The notes under the pieces: generated by a model
Databases searched by the model: none
Told to the model about the DNA's origin: nothing
Seen by the model: the letters and a program-made list of their open reading frames with translations, nothing else
Position numbers and translations under genes: made by a program
Part shown: one piece after another, positions 7,101-28,100 of the stretch
Numbering within the stretch: position 1 is the first letter of the stretch
Layout of the letters: every line of letters starts with the position of its first letter
From: Ypsolopha sequella
Taxonomy: Eukaryota; Arthropoda; Insecta; Lepidoptera; Ypsolophidae
Length of the DNA stretch: 64,000 nucleotides
NCBI GenBank assembly: GCA_934047225.1
Contig: OW203983.1
Coordinates: 38,002,310 to 38,066,309 of the forward strand
Direction of reading: 5' to 3'

Positions 7101-10100
7101 TTAGTGTTTCATTCTGCTGTTCGTGTTTACAAACCTGTCTTGATTGCACTTATCAAGATGTAATCTAAATTTACATCCTGATTGCGCGAAATATTAAAGC
7201 GTTTTTTTTTCAATGCATAAATAGCTTGAGTATCGAAGATGCGTCATTTGTAGCAGTGGAAAGACGTTCTCAGTCACTTGAGATCCGAGTTGGAAATTGA
7301 TTTGCTAAAGTAGGGCCACTGAGTGATTGATGGCACTTATGATAGCTGCATTTAGTGATGAGGTACATTTCAAGTTTCGGTTAAAAATTAAAATCAAGTG
7401 TGAGTTTACTCAACATTAGACACGTCATTCAAGTTGAAAAGAGTTGTTTAAATATATAAATCGAAAAAATTATTTTACTATAATTTATTTTCGTTTAGTT
7501 TAACTTCGTCATTGTTTTGTTTTTAATTAAATATTATTGCGTAACTTGGCGACCTCAAACACGACCTATAAAATTAGAAACTTTCCAAGAAAAAAAAAAT
7601 CTTTGTTTCTATACGAATTCTATTGCACAATAAAGCAACATTCAAATCGAAAAATAATAACCATCACTATCAACAATGAAATATTACATTTTTATATTCA
7701 CACTTGCTTATAAATAATTACGATACTTTGTAGGCATTTAATATAGGTATACCTACAACTTGCTCACGGTTTAGGAAAATACTCGAGGTAAACCTGTATA
7801 CCGTATACCTGGCATGCGGCATGACCTAAAAAGCGTGTATTTGTGCCCGAAGTATGGCGATAAGGTCAACTCCCAATCACGTTGGGACGGGAAAATTGTC
7901 GATGCAAAGAGGGAGGTGAGTTTTCTAGTGATAGTCCACACTCAAAAACACCTCTGACAACCCCACAGGGAGATATGTCGTGAAGTTATGTTTTAAGGGT
8001 TTATATTTAGACGGGACCCTATTACTAAGCCTCCGCTGTCTGTCTGTCTTTCTGTCTGTCACAGGTCACAGGGGTCTACACCTTCAGCCGTTATGTGCAG
8101 CCAGCCAAATTTTCACAGAATACTTTTACTATAGCCTCTATCACTGCAAATAATGCAATTAGCGTTTTTCTCATTGTTTTTTTTTTCTTAGTTCCTAGCT
8201 TTCCTCCAGATGGCGCTGTCCATGTCACCATAGATAAAACGCATCGAATCGATGGATAAAACGTGTTTCGTAGCAATCAATGTCAAAGTGGTTTTTCGTT
8301 TGCTTGGAATCGGTGCAAAGGAGATGGCCAGGATCGGCCTTAACCGCGTACATGAAATTGGTTTGTACGATAATTCTTATTAGATTTATTCGTAGATAGT
8401 TTCACTTTCATATTACCACGGACACAGATTAGAAGATAACTTATTTAAAAAATGCTGTTTTCTATTGAGTCAAAAATCAGCCATGACAAATGCTGCGTTT
8501 CAAAATAAGCACACAAATATACTATGAGCGCACCAAAATATGCATAGTCTTTGAACGCAGCACGAAAAAAATTGAATTATCTTGACGTGACGTAGTGTTG
8601 TCAAACATCGATTGTTTGAGATTCCGATAGTATCGATTGTTAAAAAAAAAGGTTATAGCGGTAGTGTTCTAGGTAGGTACTTATCTCAAATAAAACGTGT
8701 TTTTTTTTTCTTGGTTTAATTTATTTTTCTAACAACTAAACAAGTAAATAGGTACCTAAATAATTATCGTTGCAAACTGACACTTTAAAATAAAAACTTT
8801 TCACTGGCCTCATTAAAAAAATACCTACCTACTCATTTTTTTTTTGTATTTGTATTTTTTGTATTTTGTATTACTTATCAACTTCAAAGTACCTACTTAT
8901 TATCAATGACAAAATACGAAAATTCCTTAATCCGCGGGACTTCTTTTCTGAAAAGAACTTTATTCACGAACATGATTTTTAAATATGCTACCACAGCATT
9001 GATGTAGATAATACGTAAATGTACAGTGGAGACCGCATCAAGTAAGACACATTGGACTTTGTACCTATCTTATATTCTTCTCTGTAGGGGCTTATGTTGT
9101 ACTGCAAGTGTATAGCCTGATGTGGTCATTAAAAGCAACAATGAATAAAGTGCAGACTATCGATTGATTTTACTAGACTATCGATATTTTGGAAACACTA
9201 TCGATGTTTTGGAAACACTAACGTGACGCATTTTTCATTTCACAATTTCACATCACATTCGTCTTTTCGTTTGTTGTAAATTGCTGTTTCTGTTTTTCGT
9301 TTGCGTTTTTATTTCAAGACCCATGCTTTTCTTCTGGACTTTGATTTCGATTACATTACGACTGACCTGGCTTTTGTATAACGGACTGAACCCGCTGAAT
9401 ATGACTCAAACTGGCTGTGAACTCTGGACTATGGAACCCGATAATAATTGTGTTAACTGCGGTGTACATAATGCTACAGTGGTTCTAAACAATGAAGCGC
9501 TCTTATTATTGATACAACGATGGACTGCCCCACGATTGGTAAGTTATCTTCCAAAACCTTATTTCATTCAGATGCAAACAGAGATCGAACTTCAATTTAT
9601 AGAGCACGACACTGTACAAAAAAAATTCGTGTGCGCAAGAATTTACTCCACTTAACTACCTACCATTTTCTTCAGGATGGAATGAAAAATCATTAAACTA
9701 TTTAATTGATAACTCTCCTTTTCTAAATTCTCATGCAATGCAGACAGACGTAGAGCTACAAAATCTTCATCATATGTTTATGTGGTTATACACATTCATC
9801 CCTGTTGTGGGATGAGAACTTCATCTCTACAGTGATGGACAGCTGTAAAACGCAATAATTGGCATACTGTGAGACTGCGTACGGGTTGGTATTAGATATC
9901 ATATCGGCTGGTGGAATTTGGTGTGGCTGTGGGTTGAAATAGTTAGGAGGGTGGTCTCCCCCATTTTTAAACATTTATATATTAACATTTTCATGGATAC
10001 AAAAAAGTGTGAAAGTATATAATATATACATATATAACCTAACGCACAGAAGTTTTTCAAGATCATATCCATGGGTTAATACTTGCGATTGTCGGCTCTT

Positions 10101-13100
10101 GGTGAAACATCATCATGAATGAATAAAACACTTGTACTGTTTCACAACATAATGAAACAGTACAAGTGTTTTATTCATTCATACCCATGAGTCTTGCAAA
10201 AAGCCTTCGCTGACTTGGGATTAACACCAAAAGCGTTTTGTCTCCTATGACATAGGTTCCCTTTATAAGTACCAAATATGCTAAATATGTAAAAACTTGA
10301 AGTCCTTTTAAAAGGGTGTTGGGATGAGAGTGCATTTTTTTTAAAATCCTGGGCTTTAACCCCAAGTCAGATGTAGGCCTTTTTGTAGGACTGTAGGCAT
10401 TAGAAGGATAATGTATGAGGTCAAAATATTTATTAAAAAACTAGGTTAGGTTAGGCTTCAATGTTATGATACAAGACAGAGCCAAGCAGAGCAAGGCATC
10501 CCATAGGTATATGCAACCTTTTTATACTATCTAAATATCTCTACAAATTAATTGCAGGTTGCGAGCCATGATCTAATTTGCACAAGATGTGAAACTGCAG
10601 TCAATGAGATCAGAGGGAATAGTAATCCTGCAATAAATCCACATGCTTGTGTCTTATGCAATCATTCTTTGTTTGGAGCCCGTTCGCACCCGATACTAGA
10701 GTTAAGAATGGATACAGACCACCATCGCAATATTCGCAACATAATTACAGAAAGGCTTCTTCCAAGACAGGTAAGATGCACAATATACTCTCATTAGATC
10801 CTCATCCATTGCACCAGACCTTACAGAAAAATAAAGGTAATAGTGTGCTATTGAATTAATAACGCTTGTTTACTTATTTAAAGATTAGAGCATCACATTT
10901 GGTTTGCCATCCATGTTGGCAAAGTGCTGAGCGGGCTGCCAGACACTATGCTGAACCATCTTCTTCAAGGTCTCCTCAAATTCATTGCATAAATTGTGGC
11001 TTGAATTTGACTAGAGCCCGAAGACATATGTTGCATAACGTGCCACTACTTGGAGAAATTCAAAATCTTATCGCACCAAGGGTGGTGAGTTACAAATAAT
11101 ATATTAACATTTAAGATTGTGTAGCAGAGCTACAATTAACATACTCGTACATGGAGTAAAGCTGTCATGAATCAACTGTCAAATAAGTGCTACTGTCAAG
11201 TAAGTGCTTTGTCAGTGTAGTCTAATATTCACAGGCAATACTACAAAGATATCATGATACCAAATGATACCAATATACCAATAGAAAATGTATGTGAGCT
11301 TTGGTTCATATTTCTTCAGCCTAATAATAAGAAAAATCTTTTTACAGGTTACTGAAACCAATTTCATATGCCATACATGTTTCGTTACACATGATGAACA
11401 ACGTGTGGTTTCCGATGAACAACATGTAGCTGTTGATGAACAACATGTAGCCGTCGATGAACAACATGTACCTGTCGATGATCAACATGTGGCTGTTGAC
11501 ATGCCCCAAGAAGCTACAGCACAACAACAACCAGTTCCTGCGCCTAATAGACGCATTTGTTTAGGCTGCGGTATTATTTTGGATAACATGCGAACCCACA
11601 ACTTACACCCGGAAAGTATTTTAAGAATAGTACAGGGATGGGTTGCACCACGGCAGGTGAGCATTTTTATTTTTATTGCTATGTTTATTTAGTTATGGGC
11701 AAAGAAATCATTGAATATGTTTAACTATCTTCAGAGTAATGTGATTTAAAAGGCATTATCTTCAGAGTAATGTGATTTAAAAGGCATTACATAACTAAAT
11801 GCAGTTTCTGTAAGTTAATTAAATTGAATAATTACCTACATTGCTCTAACACCAGGTGACCAAAGTCAAAGCATACCTTGTCTGCATGAATTGTAGAAAA
11901 TCGAGATTTGTACACCAGTATATTATAAATGAAACAGGCAAACTATTTTCACTGTAACAAGATGGTTTTGAATTGGATACTCCTATGTTTGCATCTCGTA
12001 TATTCATATTCAGAATACGTCACTTGCATGATCGACTTCACGAAAGAATTCCGTAGATCAAGGCATTTTCGTATTAAGTGCTTGACAATAAAAGAACCCT
12101 GAAGGGGAGTTCTTTCAGGGATTCTAAGTCTATGATCACTATGGTCACGATTAATCCTTTCCTCCTTAATTGAGCAGAGGCGACTTAAGACATCTATTTG
12201 ATTGAGTAAACAGGCGCCTTGAGAAGTATCCACTTAAATAATTTACAGTTATATCTCTAACTCAACCTGCTTCTTTTATTTTACAATGCCCAGATATATC
12301 CAATAAAAAATACCAAAATACTAGTTTCATGAATAAATGTAAGCTTTAATATAAAAAGCTGTATTCATCATAGGCAATTAATAGTTCACAATAACAACTT
12401 CTCAGTTTGAAATAAGTTTCCAATTGAATAAGAAGTAGATAAAATAAGAGTGCTTAATAAATTCTGCCCAAAATGTAATTGAATTTGAACATATCTATAA
12501 ATACTGCTTTTTTTGTAGATCCAAGAAGAAGACCGCATTTGCCATCCTTGCTGGATGAGGGCAGGGCGCGCAGTGCAGAGAGAGCAGCAACCAGACCCAG
12601 TGCCAGCGCTTAATACGTCTATAACGCTGCCAGATTATTCAAGAGCAGCTTCTACTCATGGACGATGCATGTTCTTGAATTGCATACGGAGGGAGCTCAA
12701 ATTAGTCCCGATTGCTCTAAGAAAAAGACTGTTTAATGATTTAAATTATTATGTTCCACTGGGATGTCGAATTTGCTTATTCCACTTAAACGCCAATCTA
12801 TGGGCTGACTTGATTCTGACGGAACCGATTATACGGACATTTACAGCAGCACAAATTCAAGATTTTTGCACGCTTATGAAAAATATTACAGTCATAGACT
12901 TTGAAAATATTTATGATATGGAAGACTGTATTGTGTGGTACTGGCTTGGGAGAACTAAGAACCAATTCCGGGAAATAGAAATGCACATCCCTCAATTCCC
13001 AAATAAATTGACAGCTCTTGTTGCATATTTAGTAAAATTAAGAACAGGGGATTCAGATGAGAGACTTGCCACGTTACTAAATATCCCGAAGTCATCTTTT

Positions 13101-16100
13101 AATGCTATGATCACCAAAGCCAGAGAATTGATGACTGAGTATTTTGTACCCTTACATTTGGGTTTAAACCATGTAACAAGGCAACATGTTGCAGAGAGGA
13201 ACCTTTTAATACCAAATGCCTTGTTTGGTAATCCAGATAGCCCTTTAGAGGACAGAAAAGCGGTTGTGATAATGGATGGCACATATATATTTGTCCAGAA
13301 AAGTAGTAACTACTTGTACCAAAAAGACACATACTCCTTACATAAGTATACGAACCTTGTTAAACCGTTCATGATAGTTTCGAGCGATGGCTATATTATT
13401 GATGTGCTGGGCCCCTATTCAGCAACGACATCCGATTTAAATGACGAGTTACGGGACCCTGCGAAACCATTACGGCAGTATTTTCAGGCAGGAGATATCC
13501 TTATTCTGGATAGGGGCTTCAGGGACGCTATACCGCTGTTGCAAGCATGCCATTACGACGTCCACTTTCCACGGTCCTTGCAACGGGGTGAAAGACAGCT
13601 ATCCACCTCCGCCGCCAATGAATCGCGTAAAGTGACCATCTGCAGATGGGTAGTGGAGGTGGTAAACGGCAGAATAAAAAGAGATTTTAAAATATTCCGC
13701 CATAGGTTTTTTAACCAAGCCTCCAGACATTTAATGGAAGATTTTAGAGTAGCTGCAGCTTTAACAAACAGCTTTCATCCAGTTATCAGGGACCGTGATG
13801 ATGCTCAACAAATTATTGCCATCATTGAGGAGAAAATGAACATGGATAATACCCTTGGTCATTTTGTTTTAGATAACGATTTAAATAGAAGACGGGCTCA
13901 ATTTGTGAGCATCAATGTAGCTAATAATAATATTGTGTTTCCTGTAATGGCTTACAGCGAATTGATTTTAATAGCACTTGGGACTTATCAAATTAAACAA
14001 GCCCGCTCTTACTATGGTGAACATACAAGGCGAAACGGTGTATATACTGTGGAAGTGTGCAGAGAGGTTGACAGACAATTATTAATTGACATGGTCTTGC
14101 CCGACACAACATGGTTGTTACGTGGGCGAATCCAAAGCAGACATGTTAGGGGTAAAACATATTTCGTGTACATTTTGGTCGATCAAGAGAGACAGGGGCG
14201 AGATGCTATCGCGCAATATTATTGCACTTGCATCGTCGGCCGCAGAACCGTGGGCTGTTGTGCCCACGTGATGACCATAATATGGTTCTTAAGTTGGGCA
14301 AGGCATCAGGGTCATATCGCACCACCTGCACAATTCCTGGACGATTATCTCATTGTTTTAGAGGATGACTAAAAATAAATAATTGTGGAAAAATACCGTT
14401 TTTTTTTTTTTTTTTCATTATAGGTAACGATTTACCCTTCACGCTCACTAATCCACACAAGGGTAATAAGTTTGTCTAAACTCCGACTTTTACAGTAAAA
14501 TGACAGTGCGGAAAAGTGACGAAAATGGTTTTTCTCGCTTACTTGCACAGCGCATCCATTTTTCGTAATGTCATTTTACTGCAACTAATTAAGTCTTGAG
14601 TTTAATGGACTGTAAAACGCAGACATTTCGAGCATGGCCCTTTTTAATACATTAGAATCATCATGAAATGTATTGTTACAACTATAAACGTTCCAAACGC
14701 GCTTATGTTTATTTTCGCAATGACATACGAAAATAACCTCAAAATAAAAACGATACTTATCAGAAAAAGTAATTAAAATGTGTCCGTTTTAAATGGATAG
14801 TCAAACCGTGTTATTTTGAATGTGGTCTTTAATATAGGCCACAATATCTTTGTGTACACTCTTAAGGCATTTTGCTTATGGGGAATTGACCGTCTCCTTT
14901 GGTCTTTGATTCTGTTGCTAGAGAATACGACAGCGCCATCTCGGAATCTTATTTAACACTAAATTTGACATAAGGAAAAACGCTCAAGGGGGATCAAAAT
15001 GCAAAAAAAAAATTATGTTGCAGTTTTCAACGCCATCAAGTCCCCATGATAAGGGGGATCTCCGAAACAAGAGGCCCGAAAAATATGAAAAAAATCATGA
15101 TAACGTGATTATCAGGTGATTATTTATTACCTGAAGATTACAGGGAAAATATAGCGGTTACGATATTAGGATGCCGTACTCAGCGGGAGCAGCGAATTTT
15201 TTGCAAGGCGCTACCATTTCAACGGCTTGTTTTTGTCGCATTAATGTTGCTACGGCATCTACATTTTTGTTATTTACAATCATATTTTTAGGATTCCGTA
15301 CCCGTATCGTCTTGTGGTCCGACACGCACATGTCCAAATTTTTTGTTTGTTTGGTAGCAAATTAAAAAGTCAAGGCTGAAAGTTAAATAAACCCATACAC
15401 AATGGGACCTAAGTCCAAATCCATCAATTTGATACCTAACAATACTTGAATATTCATGTACAGTCAATACCACGTCAAGTTATACAATTGCATTACTAAC
15501 ATTAGCCCCTATAGCGAACGATAGGTACAAAGTCCAATGTATAGCTTGACTATACCAGTGTAAAGGTGATGAAGGGTGCTTTAAAACAGATTTCAGTAAG
15601 TTTTGTCCAAACCTTGCACTGGGCATTATCTATTCCTTCCTATAGGTATATGTACTAACTACTCTTATATACAGTGGCGTATTTACCCTAAGGCCAAAAG
15701 GGCCATGGATGGACCGGGGCGGCAGGCTGCGAGGGGCGGGCGGCGCAAGCTGCACCTCGCGCTCAGCTTTAGACGCCTTTCATTATCAATCGTTAGGTAC
15801 CTATTTGCTTTATTCGTCCAATATTTTAATTTATATTGCTTTTTGACCTTATACTGTCATACAAAAATAGTTCACCGGAAAATATATTAAATATTGAATA
15901 AATGTTTTTTTTTTTTATTTGTTTATAACACTTTTTGCACATTTACACAAATAACTTAAAGACATAAAAAACGATTTAACATGGTGCACAAGGGCGGCAC
16001 TTATTGCTAATATCATTATCGTCCAGGCAACCCTTGGCAGATAACAGAAACAAAATAACATGTGGAGGTGTAAATGTGTAAATACTAATCAGAAAAATGG

Positions 16101-19100
16101 TGTTTATTTCTTTGTAGGTATTTTTAGTTTTTTCATTCATTACCATCACAGCCCGCATGGACACAGTGCTGGATTTTATTTTATAATTGAAACATTTTTA
16201 CTTTTTTCTCGTTAATTTATGGGGCGACAAACCTTACAGGCCCAGGGCGCCAAATCCTAAAATACGCCACTGCGTATATACAGCGTAACACTATTTTATA
16301 CAGCCAACTTTATGCTGGAGACTTAAAGGTAAGTGATCAGTACTACGGGCCAATAATTTTTTTTGCAAATTTAAAAAAAGTAATTTCAACTTTTCATATT
16401 GGGGCTGGGCGTTTGTAGGCAAACGGAAAAAAAAATCGGATTTCCCAAAAAGGGTAATTAAACCTTGATACCGACTATTTCGAGAATTCAGAATGATTTT
16501 AGCTGTATAAATTAATGTCATTTATAGACCTCTGTAACGTTATAAAAATACCAGTACAACGTGTTTTATTGCGTTTTGATTATCATTTTCGTTGATAATA
16601 ATGTTATGTATAATGTAGCCAAACGAGATACTATTTGTGTCTGTCCAAAAGTTGCGTTACGTTATTTCAAGTGGCTTCTTTACATAAATAGTCCAACTTA
16701 CCTCTGGAACGACATCCTTGTAGTCGTACTTGGTGAGATGCAAGCACTGCGCCAGATCGCAGAGGTACCTGGAGACTACGCCCCCGTTCGCGAAGTTCTG
16801 TCTGCCGATGTCTAGGATATTGATCACGGCTCCGTTGTCCGCTGGCCCTTTGGGGTCCTGCCAAGAATCCTGCGGTCGACAGAGATGCACCATATTAGAA
16901 TACTTTCATCCTTGCCTACTTCCAAACAAAGATTCTGTCCATGTCAACAAGTATTTCAACGAATAGTAAAATTTCGCCGTTTACAAACGCCGCGGCGTCG
17001 TCGGTTTCTAAACGCTCGCTGTTACGCAATTTAGGAGGTAGGCATGTATTTATATATGTAACCTATTACTATGTAGTATATAGGATGGGATTTGGTCGGC
17101 CGCCTGGATTCGTGCTGGGGGTTCGGTTGGTGATCATTGAACCTTGTTCCTGGTCCCTGGACGGGTCTCCGGTATGGGTTCGGGCGGTTTATTGGACCTT
17201 GTATAATAATATTTTACCTATAATTTTAATCGTATATATATTGCTACATAAATTAAATAAACATTTAATCTAAGTAGTTCATGTACATTTATTATTTTAT
17301 TACATATATTTTTGTAAGATTAAAATTTGACTTGTGAAACGTGTATTATATATACCTACGTTGCAAAATAAACTTTTTGAATTTATAATTTTAATTTTTT
17401 GAAAACTGCCTGCCGTTTGTAAAATAAATTCGCCATTTTCTAAATAGCCGAAATCGAAAGTCTTTCATCAAAACTTGAAAAAGGTGCGATGATGAGCAGA
17501 GCGAGGAGAAGTGTGTTAGGTTTAAATGTAAGTACATATTGGGAGCCAACCGAAACGGAGCGGTGCGAGGCGACCCTCAATACTTCTAACAGAATTACTA
17601 TATACAGAGGCAAATTAGAAAAAGCAGAATTCTACTATTTGACAAAGATTCGTCGAATAGCAAAATAGCGAGCGTTTAGAAACTGACGAGGCCGTTTATA
17701 AACGGCTGAATTTTATGCATGCGACATATAAAAAACAAAACCCTGACTAGACAAAGCGGCAGAACCTACAAATATGAAATTTGGACTGTAGGTTCCTTGT
17801 ATGACTTAGTTAGATATACCAACTAAGAAAGGATTTTAGGGTCCACGTGAGGTTATTAAATGTTTGTTGAATTATGAAATAAAGTAGCAGGCAGTCAACT
17901 TGGTTAGTTTAATACCAGCAATTGTCCGGAGCAGGAAGGTTTTCTTTACTATGGTCAAGCGTCATTAGTCAGTCAAAACATGTAGGTAGATTTTGTCGTT
18001 GCGTTCGGTACCACGCTGAATATTAAGCCACGCGTTTCTCAGCCGAGGACATATACTTGTTTATAATTTCAATATTTAAATATCTAACAAGTTTTAAATT
18101 TTAGAAAAGCTGTATCCTGCACATGTGAGTATGATCGCTGACTTTACTAATTAAATGTAATTTTTACACGTACAATAAAAATGTTTTTAGCGTACTTTTG
18201 GCACTTATGTACACGACAATCGTAATACAATAGACTTTTGACTTTTTTAAGTGAAAAGCAAAGTAAAAACGGTTCAAAGGTAAAAATTATTATAATTGTT
18301 TAAATTTTCTTTTGCACACTTTGATGAATGAATGAATATGTTTATTTATTTCAAAGATAACTTAATCTAAATACATCCCACAAAACCAAGTAGAAATTTG
18401 GTTTGTCTGTGGGGAGGGAGTCGCACTTCTTTTTATATAAATTAGATAGTAAATCCGATTCTGAAGGCTTTAATTTTAGTTTTAGTGCTGTCAAAACTTA
18501 AATTTTGCCAAAGTAATTAAGCTTCTGTTCCTAAACTTCAAGAACTATTTCGCAATGAAGAAAATTTAGTTTTGACAGCACTAAAACTAAAATTAAAGCC
18601 TTCAGAATCGGCTTTAATTATGTACTAAATTATAAGTAGGTAGGTAAGGAAATGCCTTCTTATTCTTATTCTTATTAACAGTAAATAATAAAATGCTATT
18701 TTAATCTGTCAAATGTTTTCATGTTTTATAAAAGGTAAGTTTTATACATAAGTTTGATAAGTTTTTTTATATAAGTTTGATGTACCTATAATATTTGGTT
18801 TATATTATATCCTGTTATTCAGGACGCCTCCTTCAAGTTTTCCTTAGACTTATTTCTAGATATTTAGGACAAGGTCGGTACTCAGTGATATATCTCAAGA
18901 TCATATCGAACAGGATAAAAGTCAAAGTCAACTTTACAAATAAATCAAGGTTTAACGAATAGGAAGGCGTTGATGTAATACCATTCAAATTGAAGAGGCA
19001 ATTCGAAAAGGGTCCCAATTTAAGGAAATCAAATTTTACAGGATAATAAAAAAGTTTAATATTTTTTAAATTCAATTTAGATTTTCCATAATATTTTTTA

Positions 19101-22100: not shown

Positions 22101-25100
22101 TTATTATACAAATTATACTTAAAAAAGTTAAAATTATGTTCCATTTGCGTCATAATGACCGCGCGCGTTAGTTGAACTTTTTTCTAACCTTTCTTTTTAA
22201 ACAACAAACAATTAATCGCAAAAATCAAAGTGAAATTTAGCTGTAACATATATTTCGGTATGATGGGCAATTGGACACTCACCCTAATTTTAGTAATACA
22301 AATATCATACATGGTTCTGTGCGCGAATGTACGGTGAAGGAAAAAGGAGGTTAAATCAATGGCGGAGAAAAGTGGTGAATCCACTGACAAGAGCGTACTT
22401 CTTAAATTTTGGCTGGGTTAGTTAGCCGATAAGCGCGAAGTTTTCTAAACAAACATTCAAATTTACCTCATTCTCCGACCTTGCTTATAATTATCCCCAC
22501 TAATCAACAGAGTTGCCGACGAGCGTCAAACTTTGTCGTCTAGCGCCGGGTGCGTCTGCGCATACCTACTGCTTACCACTCTGTGCTGTACCATTAATAT
22601 GACTAAACTCTTGTTTCGCAGCAATAAAGATGAGAATCGTTAAGCTAATACGAGAAAGTTTCATTTGGTGGCTGGTGGTAAGACGAGCCGTTGCCAAAAT
22701 TCTACCGCAAGATGACGCATCGTCACAGCGCGCACGTGCAGTCGTTGAACACGTGGGAAGATCGATTAGGGTATTTCTATTATAACTTTGGGTACTCCCT
22801 ATGAGTTCATGGGTATCACGGGAGGTCTATGAGCTAGTAGACAAGAAATTTGAAGAAAGCAAAGACAATGCTAGAATTGGGCACATCCACTTCCGTGTCA
22901 CAACAGCCCACAAGTCGTATTGGTACACATCATGTCGTATGGTATACATACCATAAATAAATCTTGGTTAATGCATATTGAAGACGCAAAATAGTTATGT
23001 CAGACCGAATGAGTGTTTGTCTACCTATCCCTCTACTGGGACATTATGTACCTATCTATTTATTTTCTGCCAAAAACCATCAAGAGGCTCTCAAATTATG
23101 CAAAATGGAAATTAATAGCGAAGTTTGTTGACCTTGTTTAGTCCAATTAGAACACATGTACTTACATACTATCGTAGAAAAACTTGAGAGCCCATATTCC
23201 GCTCGTATTAAGATGTTAATAAGAGCGACGAGTAGGCCCGCGGTAATTTGTTTGTCGGTACCCATGAGGCTGTCAACATTGTACCTATACCTACACAAGC
23301 GTCAAAGATGCTGTACTCTTGCCAATATTGGTATCGATTCGGCATAACACGTCTTAACTTATTTCACAGGACTAACCTTATTTTAAGCGTCCTGTCTTTT
23401 TCTTTCTTTATCGAAAAGACAAGGACAGAACGCTTAAATTAAGTTTAGTCCTGTCGAATAAGTTAGGATGTGCTTCATCGAATCGGTACCATTGTCACTA
23501 AAGCGGTTTATTTAGCACGTGAGTGAGAATGACTAGGTTCCGGTCTATACTGTAGATACGAAAATCTTTAAAATATCAATAATATAAACCAAACATATAA
23601 TTTTTATTAGCGAAGGTATGAAAGTTTAAAAGAAATACCAAGCGCAGAGAACTACACTGGTGGACATAAAAATCGACTCAAGCATTGTTGTTCTACATTT
23701 AAGGAAATAACCCAATCATACAAACATAAACATATGAAATATATAACATATCATTTTAAAGGTATAGGCTTCCACCTTTGATTATATGCATTTTTGTCTT
23801 AAAGCATTTGCTATACAGGCTGTAATTTTTTTTTTAAGTGATGTATTAATAAATATTGAAATAATCAAACAGCGAAAAATTAAAAAAAAACCTTCTTTTA
23901 CAAAATCATTCATTTATTCATTAATTAAGTTTAACATTAGTACTTCGTGTTCCCCCCTCTAGCCCTTATAACTGCTTGCAGCCGGTTCTTCATTGACCTA
24001 ATAAGTTTTTAATTAATTAAATGAATTTCACGCATAGTATAGCGAATACTTTTAAACCAAAATGCATTTATTCAAAGATGGAGGCCTATACCTTTAAAAT
24101 GATATATATATTTCATACGTAGGGCGGCTGACATGTAATCTCCTTGGTCAGAAATATATACAAAAATAATGCTGTTTGGTATGGATTTATATTAGTTTGT
24201 TATTCTATTTTCAAAATGTATTACATTCATTTGTTTATTGCATCACGTTTATTTGTCTCCTACAATTGTTTCGAACATGTCGGTAGAAAAAGTGAAAATG
24301 GATAAAATCGAGCAGCGTGCGGTGATTAAGTTTTTGAATAAAGAAGGGAATACGCCTTCGGAGATCAGACAGCGTATGTTACGTGTCTTTGGCAGTTCGT
24401 GTTCTTCCGAATTTGTTATAAAGTTTTGGTCAAGGCAGTTTAAATTAGGTCGTGAGAGCCTCGAAGATGATCCTCGTAGCGGAAGACCAGTTTCGGCCGT
24501 CACCGATGAAAATGTAGCCAGGGTGAAAAAATTATATTAGAGGACCGACGAGTGAAGCAGTGGGAGATAGCTAGAGATGTGGGCGTCAGTAAAGAGCGAG
24601 TCAATGAAATAATTCATGAGCATTTGAACATGTCCAAGGTTAGTGCACGTTGGGTCCCTAGAATGTTGACTGCATTTGACATGGAGAGGCGTGTCAAATG
24701 TTGCGAAGAGTTTTTGGACATGAGTCGAGGGAAAGAGGAAGAAATAATTTCTAGAATTGTAACATGTGATGAGACTTGGATTCGACAATGGGACCCGGAA
24801 CGTAAGCAAAAGTCGTTACAGTGGAAATTTAACGATGAGAAGCCGCCTCGGAAATTCAAGGTCTGTCCATCGGCCGGTAAACTTATGGCTACAATCTTTT
24901 GGGACACAGAAGGGATTTTGCTCATAGATTATTTACCGAAGAAAACTACAATGAATGCTGATTATTATTCAAACTTATTATACCAACTAAGAGAGACAAT
25001 AAAAGAAAAACGGCGAGGTAAACTAAGCAAAGGAATTCTGATTTTGCACGATAACGCACCAGTGCATACCGCACGCACAACAAAGCTAGCAATTAAAGAC

Positions 25101-28100
25101 AATGCCTTCGAAACCATTGATCACCCCCCTTATAGTCCAGATCTAGCCCCCTGTGACTATTTTCTGTTTAGACTTCTCAAGAAAGACCTCAGGGGACGAA
25201 GGTTTATGACCGATGACGAAATGAAGGCAGCGGTTTCTGACTATTTTGACGACAAACCGTTTTTTTTTTTTTTAATGGCTTAAATTCAATATTTGAAAAA
25301 TTTAATAAGTGCATTTTATTAGCAGGGGACTATGTAGAAAAATAAAAATAAACTATCCAGTTACGTCATTTCTTTCATAGTTAGGTAGATTACTTTTCAG
25401 CCTCCCCTCGTATGTTTGTTTGTATGATTGGGTTATTCCCTTGAATGTAGGACAACAATGCTTGAGTCGATTTTTATGTCCACCAGTATATTTGTTCCCC
25501 GTAAGTTTAGTCTAAAGTAAACTCATACAACATATTCAACGTAGAAACTTTCACTCTATGTGAGTTTGTTATTTTCTATAATAATTTTAATGATTTTACT
25601 TTCACTTTCGTACCTTTTAGTACGTGTCAGTACCACATAATAAAACTAATATTCGAATTTAAAGTTTCATTTGGTAATATTAATTAATGTTTGAAAAAAT
25701 ACCAGATTTGTGTTTGAATCAAGTGAAATTAAGAAAAAATAAAGTTTAAACGACTAAACTAACATAACCAGGTGTGTTGGCGGATTACGAGGAAGCATTT
25801 AAGTAATTTATTTTGTTCGTTTTACAATATAATTCAAGATGAATGTAAGACATTATTTTTCATCGGGAAATTATAAGTCGAGCCACAGAATTTTTTTTTG
25901 GGCACGCAACCGCGTCCTCTGACTTTATATGTAAACAACGGGAAAATGTGGAAGCTTCTAAAAAACTACTTCATACTTTTTTCAAAGCTACAGAAAGCGT
26001 CAACTATCACCATCTAAATTACTAATTTAGCCACGAATTTTTCAACTCACCAATATTTTACGGTTTACAGCTTCATATGTTCGTAGACTTGGGCAGATCG
26101 TAAAGTATGAAATCGAAAATCTTTCACCAAAAGTCAAAAAATAGGAGCGGCGACGAGCGGAGTGAGGAGGAGCTTGTTAGGTTTACATGTGAATACATAT
26201 TGGGAGCCGAGCGAAGCGAGGCGACCCTCCTAATTTTTACAGAATTTACTTTGTTTGTGTCATACATAAATATTTTAGAAGTCTACTGCTTGAATATAAA
26301 TTATATGCTATAAAATAGCTGCTACGCTGGGTCGTTATAAAATTTAATTTCTAATACAATATTCGGTTTTGGGTCCACATCCTACACAAAATATTAAATT
26401 TTCATGTTAAATAAACAGTTGTTTTTTTTTTCTTACAAATATCGCGATTTTGTTATCTTGTCATTTGAATGTCAGGCAAGGGCGGGTCACGGTCGCAGCT
26501 TTAATCATAAAGTCATCCTTGCTTGCGTAATAATTATAGCTTATGATAAATCATAATGTACTCTTTTTTTAAATCTCCACGAGAATATCACAGACATAAA
26601 TTTCCGTGGTATTTATACATAATTAGGTTATAATATAATCCAAATCCATATTATCAATTGATACGAACTGAGTTCGTTTGTTACTCTTTAACGTCTCAAC
26701 AACAGAGAGCTGAAGTAAAACCTGGACAACAACATACAGCATACTTTTTATCCCGGAAAAATGCATAATTAATTACCGAAATTCTAGAATATTTTCAATC
26801 TTTTGTATCTGTCACTTTTGACATTTGTCAATTTTGAGATCTCTCAAACAAATCTGTCATTACTGAAATAATAAAGACACTCTTAAACGATATCCACGCT
26901 TTTAGGGTTCCGTACCCAAAGGGTAACCAACGGGACCCTATTACTAAGACTCCGCTGTCCGTCTGTCACCAGGCTGTATCTCATGAAACGTGATAGTCAG
27001 ACAGTTGAAATTTTCACAGATGATGTATTTCTGTTGCCGCTAAAACAACAAATACATAAATAATAAAAAACAGAATAAAATAAACATTTAAGGGGGCTCC
27101 CATACAACAAACGTGATCTTTTGCCGTTTTTATAGTTAATGGTACGGAACCCTTCGTGCACGAGTCCAACTCGCAATTGGCCGGTTTGTTTTTATAAACG
27201 TTTTCTTTCTCCTTTGTGAGAGCAAACGCATACTGGATGAGTAAGGCAAAGTAACATGTCTTACTCATCGAGACGTATGCGGCAATAATAAAAAAATAAT
27301 GAAACATCTTTGTCTGAAACACAAGTAGAGGTATATAATTTTATTTGACCTGTACATTGTTTTTCCTAATCGTAAAATATAGTAAAATTTCAAGGAGAAA
27401 GCTAAATTACTATCTATAAAGTATAGGTAACTGATAAGTGTTATGTTAAGACAGCGGTAGCTCAGTCGGTAGAGTGCGGACTCTCAATCTTGAGTCCGGG
27501 GTTTGAATCCTGTCGATAAACTTAGAGCATAATATACCAGAGTTTATAGAAATTTATATGCGTAGTATTTGTATATTTACCACCTGCTGATGGTGAGGGG
27601 AAACACAGTAAACCTGCATTTGTGACACAATCACCACATAAGAATCACGTCGGTGTTGAAAAGATGGCGTTACGGGTGTTGACAGGCAGTCACATTCGGA
27701 CCCACCTCTGACATTGTCTCGACGATACATAATGTTGTTATTTATCAAATTTAAGAGATTTATATCTTCTCAAAACGTTTTTGTGACGTCATACCACCTT
27801 GTATAACGAAATAGTAAAATATATTATTATTTGATTTCCAATCAAATTAGGATAGTATAATAACCTGGTGCAACTGCACATGCGCAAACCATTTCCACCA
27901 CTCAATGTACGACAGTGTAGTAACACAGTAACACTGTTGACTTCTGTTACTATTCTTGATAACCTCATTTAGACAACCTACCTGTTCCATAAGCATCTTT
28001 ATTCCCAGTAAATAAGGGCCTTGTTAACTGTCTAATTAGTTTGTTGATTGGTGGCTCCTCAGAATGGACGCTTTATATTCCAATTTTAAACTTGAGACGT

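Follow-up and report, generated by a model that had tools for sequence, protein, structure and literature searches.

A stretch of 64,000 nucleotides from Ypsolopha sequella (contig OW203983.1, positions 38,002,310 to 38,066,309 of the forward strand; hereafter the window) contains a complete Spy-type DNA transposon of 6,578 bp at 8320-14897, on the forward strand. Very likely, a cut-and-paste transposon of the Spy group (PHIS superfamily) has ten or more near-identical copies in this lepidopteran genome, of which this element is one. Judging from its sequence, it was recently active and adds a new member to this known group; its borders are corrected here. This reading draws on the borders, the target, the absence of a duplication, the multiple copies, the conserved catalytic triad and fingers, and one large gene. 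An earlier sequence-only reading of the window had reported an apparently intact element with other borders.

The host assembly (866.8 Mb, 151 contigs; the window is C30:38002310-38066309) was searched with exon 5 of the transposase gene. Nine more copies were found on other contigs, with 99-100% identity to exon 5, each open over 620 codons. As 71 of 927 candidates were scored, the copy number is a lower bound. Two further copies (L027 and L029) are degraded, with 94-97% identity to exon 5, and are excluded from the ten, which are the window copy and its nine siblings. The siblings were read up to ~9569 and again from ~11019 onwards, on either side of exon 2 and a portion of exon 3.

Both ends are common to the nine siblings, and the flanks beyond them are unrelated. 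On the right, homology to the window stops at 14897-14903 in all nine, with unrelated sequence beyond. On the left, homology extends beyond 9020. It continues to the start of the stretch retrieved (8579-8888) in six siblings and reaches 8689 in two, where the next bases are rearranged; the stretch of the ninth starts inside the element. A local alignment aimed at the left end did not outscore shuffled sequences (66, against a maximum of 76). The left end was therefore read directly from the sequence and then confirmed in the siblings, where GGAGATGGCCAGG is present in 9/9 (seven, then two more on extension). The left terminal inverted repeat (TIR) is GGAGATGGCCA at 8320-8330 on the plus strand, and the right TIR is GGAGACGGTCA at 14887-14897, read on the minus strand; each is found at the respective end of 9/9 siblings. 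The two correspond to GGAGAYGGYCA. Thus, the other copies with common borders that the sequence-only reading had proposed to look for do exist, but their borders are 8320 and 14897.

The element is flanked by AAA at 8317-8319 and TTT at 14898-14900, the two halves of the target AAATTT. Among the ten copies, the left flank is AAA in seven, TTT in two, and GTT in one, and the right flank is TTT in nine and GAA in one. The deviating flanks belong to L060 (C29:13084383 region), L062 (C19), and L064/L026 (C21). The window copy is inserted in a dispersed repeat of ~250 bp (8160-8319 and 14898-14991) with the inverted parts ATGGCGCTGTC and GACAGCGCCAT. When joined, the window flanks match, over the junction, 39 or more other loci among those scored, with 83-89% identity. 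Ten of these 39 loci, picked by rank and not randomly, were retrieved as paralogous empty sites. All ten show AAA/TTT at the junction, and no base is duplicated or lost. Such empty sites without duplication are the published hallmark of Spy. A domesticated host gene resembling a transposase would also show an open frame and catalytic residues, as seen here. However, the element has ten or more near-identical copies at unrelated sites, which have common ends and empty sites, and this makes domestication untenable; it was rejected on the multi-copy evidence, and its probability is negligible.

The sequence-only reading placed the borders at inverted repeats at 9024-9120 and 15470-15560, with TA as the target duplication, and placed the element in the PIF/Harbinger-ISL2EU group or in a new sister family. 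These repeats do exist and are far above chance, with two exact 21-bp matches against a mean of 0 in 100 shuffles. The core is indeed of the DDE_Tnp_4 type, and it is related to ISL2EU transposases (21-28% identity to three of them). However, the right end of 9/9 siblings lies before the right repeat, and the repeats are two copies of an unrelated miniature inverted-repeat transposable element (MITE) of ~118 bp. The left one, at 9020-9127 on the plus strand, is a truncated MITE inside the element (106/108 columns identical to L069, a free-standing copy). The right one, at 15444-15562 on the minus strand, is an older representative of this MITE (87/119 columns identical to L069), past the right end common to the siblings. 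The left repeat is present in all ten element copies and, up to 9127 only, at 30 or more further loci among those scored; 40 of 313 candidates were scored, so that the number of loci is a lower bound. At six retrieved loci the MITE is complete: it is ~118 bp long and palindromic, starts with GTACAGTGGAGACC, and ends with GGTCTCCACTGTAC. The sibling ends and the MITE identity thus rule out 9024-9120 and 15470-15560 as termini. TA as the target duplication is rejected as well, since TA flanks the MITE and the empty sites show no duplication. Neither a YqaJ gene nor an AT duplication, both expected of ISL2EU, was found in the element. Two MITE copies in opposite orientation around the gene imitate TIRs, and the TA of the MITE imitates a target duplication, so that this locus illustrates cleanly how a false TIR pair can arise. 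It is very improbable that the element has the borders and affiliation first proposed.

The assignment to Spy was made against the available portions of the published descriptions. Spy elements insert within AAATTT without duplication, have a single transposase gene, and are found in invertebrate hosts, and ISL2EU is their sister clade (PMC4482050, PMC11304231). Repbase places Spy under ISL2EU (PMC12730594). In the window element, the insertion habit is the same (10/10 empty sites), the DDE_Tnp_4-type core has a conserved triad, and there is a single transposase gene; the longest stop-to-stop frame free of exons is 105 amino acids. Four YqaJ open reading frames (ORFs) compared with the element gave no match below E=0.03, which leaves room for a small spliced gene. 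An invertebrate host is indicated indirectly, by the named homologues among the matches listed, which are from Lepidoptera. Two signs of ISL2EU, AT duplication within A/AT/T and a second ORF for YqaJ, are both absent. The TWA duplication of PIF/Harbinger is not seen at the empty sites. In an unrooted tree, six ISL2EU cores from the same genome form a clade with support 1.000, and a long branch separates them from the window family, represented by eleven sequences. The comparison of DDE cores suggested by the sequence-only reading thus sets these ISL2EU cores, all from this one genome, apart from the window family.

The closest likeness is to Spy as described for cgSpy of Colletes gigas and cvSpy of Crassostrea virginica (PMC11304231), with AAA/TTT insertion without duplication, a single gene, and a DDE core. 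The short TIRs beginning with GG are within the published range of 5-691 bp, and insects are among the hosts (PMC11304231). The gene here, in contrast, encodes 904 residues in five exons, against ~700 residues in one ORF for the five Spy elements tested (PMC11304231). The published architecture consists of DDE and a DNA-binding domain, with no mention of SWIM or Cys modules in the main texts. ISL2EU resembles the window element in its related DDE_Tnp_4 core with HTH_Tnp_4, its GG/GAGG-type ends, and a SWIM-type region, which is there on the YqaJ side; it differs by its AT duplication, YqaJ second gene, and THAP domain (PMC4482050), and forms a separate clade. PIF/Harbinger shares the DDE_Tnp_4 superfamily but has the TWA duplication and a second ORF for Myb/SANT (PMC4482050). 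No Myb/SANT ORF turned up in the window element, although no search was aimed at Myb.

Several observations weigh against the Spy reading. Three of the ten copies lack the AAA/TTT pair, with TTT/TTT twice and GTT/GAA once. The terminal repeats are short, and the left and right match at 9/11 bases. The length of 6,578 bp is above the 1,165-5,910 bp of published intact Spy elements (PMC11304231). Three catalytic-domain residues found in 9/9 siblings are missing, and only from the window copy. The assignment was made by target habit and single gene, with published Spy elements compared by description and not in a tree. The Spy reading is still strongly preferred. Of the group proposed earlier, PIF/Harbinger-ISL2EU or a new sister family, the PHIS assemblage is retained; a new sister family is not needed, because Spy as published already combines a single gene with insertion into AAATTT that leaves no duplication.

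The copies appear young. Over 11019-14897 (~3.9 kb), there are 1-3 substitutions between the window copy and each of six siblings, and 6-7 for two more. The pairwise table was made without L026, which has ~0.84 kb extra in an intron and 99.2-99.5% identity to the window copy. The 1-3 substitutions in ~3.9 kb indicate recent movement, with no clock applied, in agreement with the recent activity proposed from the sequence alone. Nine in-frame bases (three residues) present in 9/9 siblings are missing from the window copy at 13436-13437 on the plus strand. Hence, "apparently intact" seems justified for the family but is doubtful for the window copy.

The transposase gene lies on the plus strand and consists of five exons with GT-AG introns, every junction in phase 0, and encodes 904 amino acids. 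Exon 1 (9401-9538) contains the start codon and the first half of Cys module 1. Exon 2 (10558-10770) contains the second half of module 1 and the first half of module 2, exon 3 (10884-11084) the second half of module 2 and the first half of module 3, and exon 4 (11348-11656) the second half of module 3 and the first half of module 4. Exon 5 (12519-14372) encodes the end of module 4, a C4-type motif, a helix-turn-helix (HTH) region, the DDE core, and the SWIM-like end with the stop codon. An alternative in-frame ATG upstream at 9323 would give 930 amino acids. The exons and length had been read correctly from the sequence alone; the description "without disruption" has to be qualified by the three residues fewer than in 9/9 siblings. 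Exon 4 carries 21-bp tandem repeats at 11393-11499, which encode a linker of the DEQHVAV type; the degraded L029 aligns there in several registers, and based on this, the repeat number may vary. Intron 1 has a perfect 30-bp inverted repeat at 10115-10182, with 8 bases between the arms.

The catalytic core (residues 539-704; 13272-13769) matches DDE_Tnp_4 in Pfam with E=1.1e-16. Its triad D540, D618, and E667, noticed from the sequence alone, is conserved among 121 aligned sequences: D540 in 120/121 with one gap, and D618 and E667 in 121/121. Foldseek with the whole model of a homologue gave one match at E<=0.001, Mos1. On re-examination, the matches were DDE transposases and integrases over the core region only, which suggests an RNase H-type core in the model. 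By sequence, exon 5 gave three matches in PDB (best E 0.06). NCBIfam gave one weak match to IS5 (E 0.063, below the cut-off). In IMG/VR, 29 pattern matches for relatives were obtained, none of them confirmed. The region similar to HTH_Tnp_4 (residues 454-492; 13017-13133) is below the Pfam cut-off (E=0.0064), and 51/58 homologues match HTH_Tnp_4 at E<=1. Upstream of it, the C-x4-C-x30-C-x2-H motif (residues 337-376; 12666-12785) is THAP-like by spacing only. Its residues are kept in 104-111 of the 121 sequences, the rest being gaps. No Pfam THAP match was found in the window protein or its homologues, and a fold search of this piece against PDB gave no match. Also in the ISL2EU elements of the same genome (L011 and L013), THAP is only a motif.

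Near the C-terminus, a SWIM-type motif CxCx9CxH is present at residues 856-870 (14223-14267), as C856-x-C858-x9-C868-x-H870. This motif, too, had been seen in the sequence-only reading, and each of its Cys and His residues is kept in 119/121 aligned sequences, with two gaps. That reading knew of no described family with this combination of domains. The same motif set is in fact common: there are 508 homologues at E<=0.001, and among the 120 matches listed, all those with an organism name are from Lepidoptera, and the CxC-CxH motif is found in 118. On sequence grounds, the unusual domain set is real, yet widespread among lepidopteran homologues.

The N-terminal part contains four CxxC ... CxxC modules, each split at the same place by a phase-0 intron. 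It is the pattern that exon duplication would produce. The four Cys residues are invariant in 28 hand-picked modules from the window protein and its homologues. A pattern search in 183 proteins (182 homologues and the window protein, many being gene models with exon 5 only) found 76 modules in 38 proteins, 1-4 per protein; it missed module 1 of the window protein itself. The most common Pfam match of the modules is zf-AD (PF07776), with 6/28 at E<=10 and the best at 0.0035, which is not conclusive. They share with zf-AD (ZAD) the CxxC ... ICxxC arrangement, but here they follow one another in tandem and are interrupted by phase-0 introns. A profile search against PDB sequences gave 13 matches, none significant (best E 1). 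The modules are thus at most weakly ZAD-like. In intron 4, at 11857-11960, a frame with V-x-C-x-x-C resembles by eye the start of a Cys-module exon and soon reaches stops; it is possibly a decayed fifth module.

A plausible mechanism follows from this architecture. One spliced gene provides the transposase. Its DDE_Tnp_4 core, of the RNase H type, would cut the element out flush at the GGAGAYGGYCA ends and join it to the middle of AAATTT without stagger, leaving no target duplication. Blunt-ended breaks have been proposed for Spy (PMC11304231). Recognition of the ends or multimerisation may be the task of the HTH region, together with the C4-type motif and the Cys modules of the N-terminal part. 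The SWIM-like C-terminus would supply in cis what ISL2EU has on the YqaJ-side protein.

The link of the SWIM-like end to the partner protein of ISL2EU is the most interesting lead and is worth testing. The profile check proposed earlier recovered DDE_Tnp_4, but Pfam SWIM (PF04434) was not reported for the window protein at E<=10; among homologues it matches 9/58 at E<=1, the best being 0.0056. In ISL2EU elements of the same genome, a SWIM-type motif lies inside the YqaJ ORF of L012 and L016. In L010, the ORF with the motif is a separate one, upstream on the strand of YqaJ; Pfam does not recognise this ORF, and it is assigned to the YqaJ gene by strand and position only. When a profile of the window C-terminus was compared with 920 ORFs of 16 loci, YqaJ-side ORFs ranked first, with 7e-7 for L010, 0.0049 for L011/L013 (one family), and 0.02 for L016. 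With hhalign, the likeness extends over 63 columns and takes in the strands that precede the finger, with probability 94.6, against 0.4 for a Cys-module control. The simplest reading of these alignments would be a single SWIM region that ISL2EU has in trans and the window element in cis, and common descent of the two regions is probable. A less probable alternative, still to be taken seriously, is convergence around a short zinc motif. It would fit the near failure of Pfam SWIM to recognise either region, the weaker profile matches (0.07-0.29) inside the range of shuffled ORFs (0.057-0.75, five repeats), and the fact that the best match, L010, is an ORF tied to YqaJ as stated above; the extent of the likeness beyond the finger and the top rank of YqaJ-side ORFs speak for common descent instead.

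A further idea, which is rather speculative, is that SWIM is a part of the transposition machinery common to ISL2EU and Spy. Spy would then have fused it to the C-terminus of the transposase, dropped the nuclease, and switched from AT duplication to flush insertion without duplication. The function of the second ORF of ISL2EU was called unknown (PMC4482050). If the idea were true, this ORF would act through its SWIM finger, and YqaJ would be tied to the processing of staggered ends. The contrast between SWIM on the transposase in one group and SWIM on the YqaJ side in the other offers a testable hypothesis about that ORF. The words "SWIM" and "zinc" are absent from the main texts of PMC4482050 and PMC11304231, and no claim is made that SWIM or the Cys modules of Spy are unpublished. 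In the literature search, within the portions of the sources available, nothing was found on SWIM with lepidopteran DDE transposons. SWIM with DDE_Tnp_4 gave only "swimming crabs", and SWIM zinc finger with transposase and Harbinger only a plant genome paper.

Related families, among them two more young ones of the Spy-like clade, are present in the same genome. A second Spy-like family (L031-L041) encodes a 47% identical protein; 11 copies were compared, with 99.9% identical DNA, and all 11 have AAA and TTT outside the ends GGAGATCACCC and GGACATCACCC. A third (L042-L046 and further loci) encodes a 45% identical protein at 46 or more loci, near-identical where compared. For this family, the right ends only of five copies were compared, and they show GATGTCC/TTT in 4/5 and TTA in 1/5. 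As a control, ISL2EU-type elements of this genome have one ORF for DDE_Tnp_4 and another for YqaJ, in opposite orientation. Two copies compared have AAT...ATT ends, as expected for AT duplication. These two copies are 99.9% identical over 4.4 kb. One score, 142.2 bits, is shared by 125/150 scored DDE_Tnp_4 matches, most with a 495-codon frame, which represent a large ISL2EU-type set (L014 and L015, for example). A young Spy family, its sister families, and near-identical ISL2EU copies in one host allow a comparison of domain content and target habit.

Outside the element, the inverted pair TACAGTGGCGTATTT and AAATACGCCACTG, ~0.6 kb apart at 15666-16278, is possibly another non-autonomous element. 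At 24510-25283 of the window, there is a frame of 257 codons, which we take to resemble a mariner-type transposase from its motif pattern.

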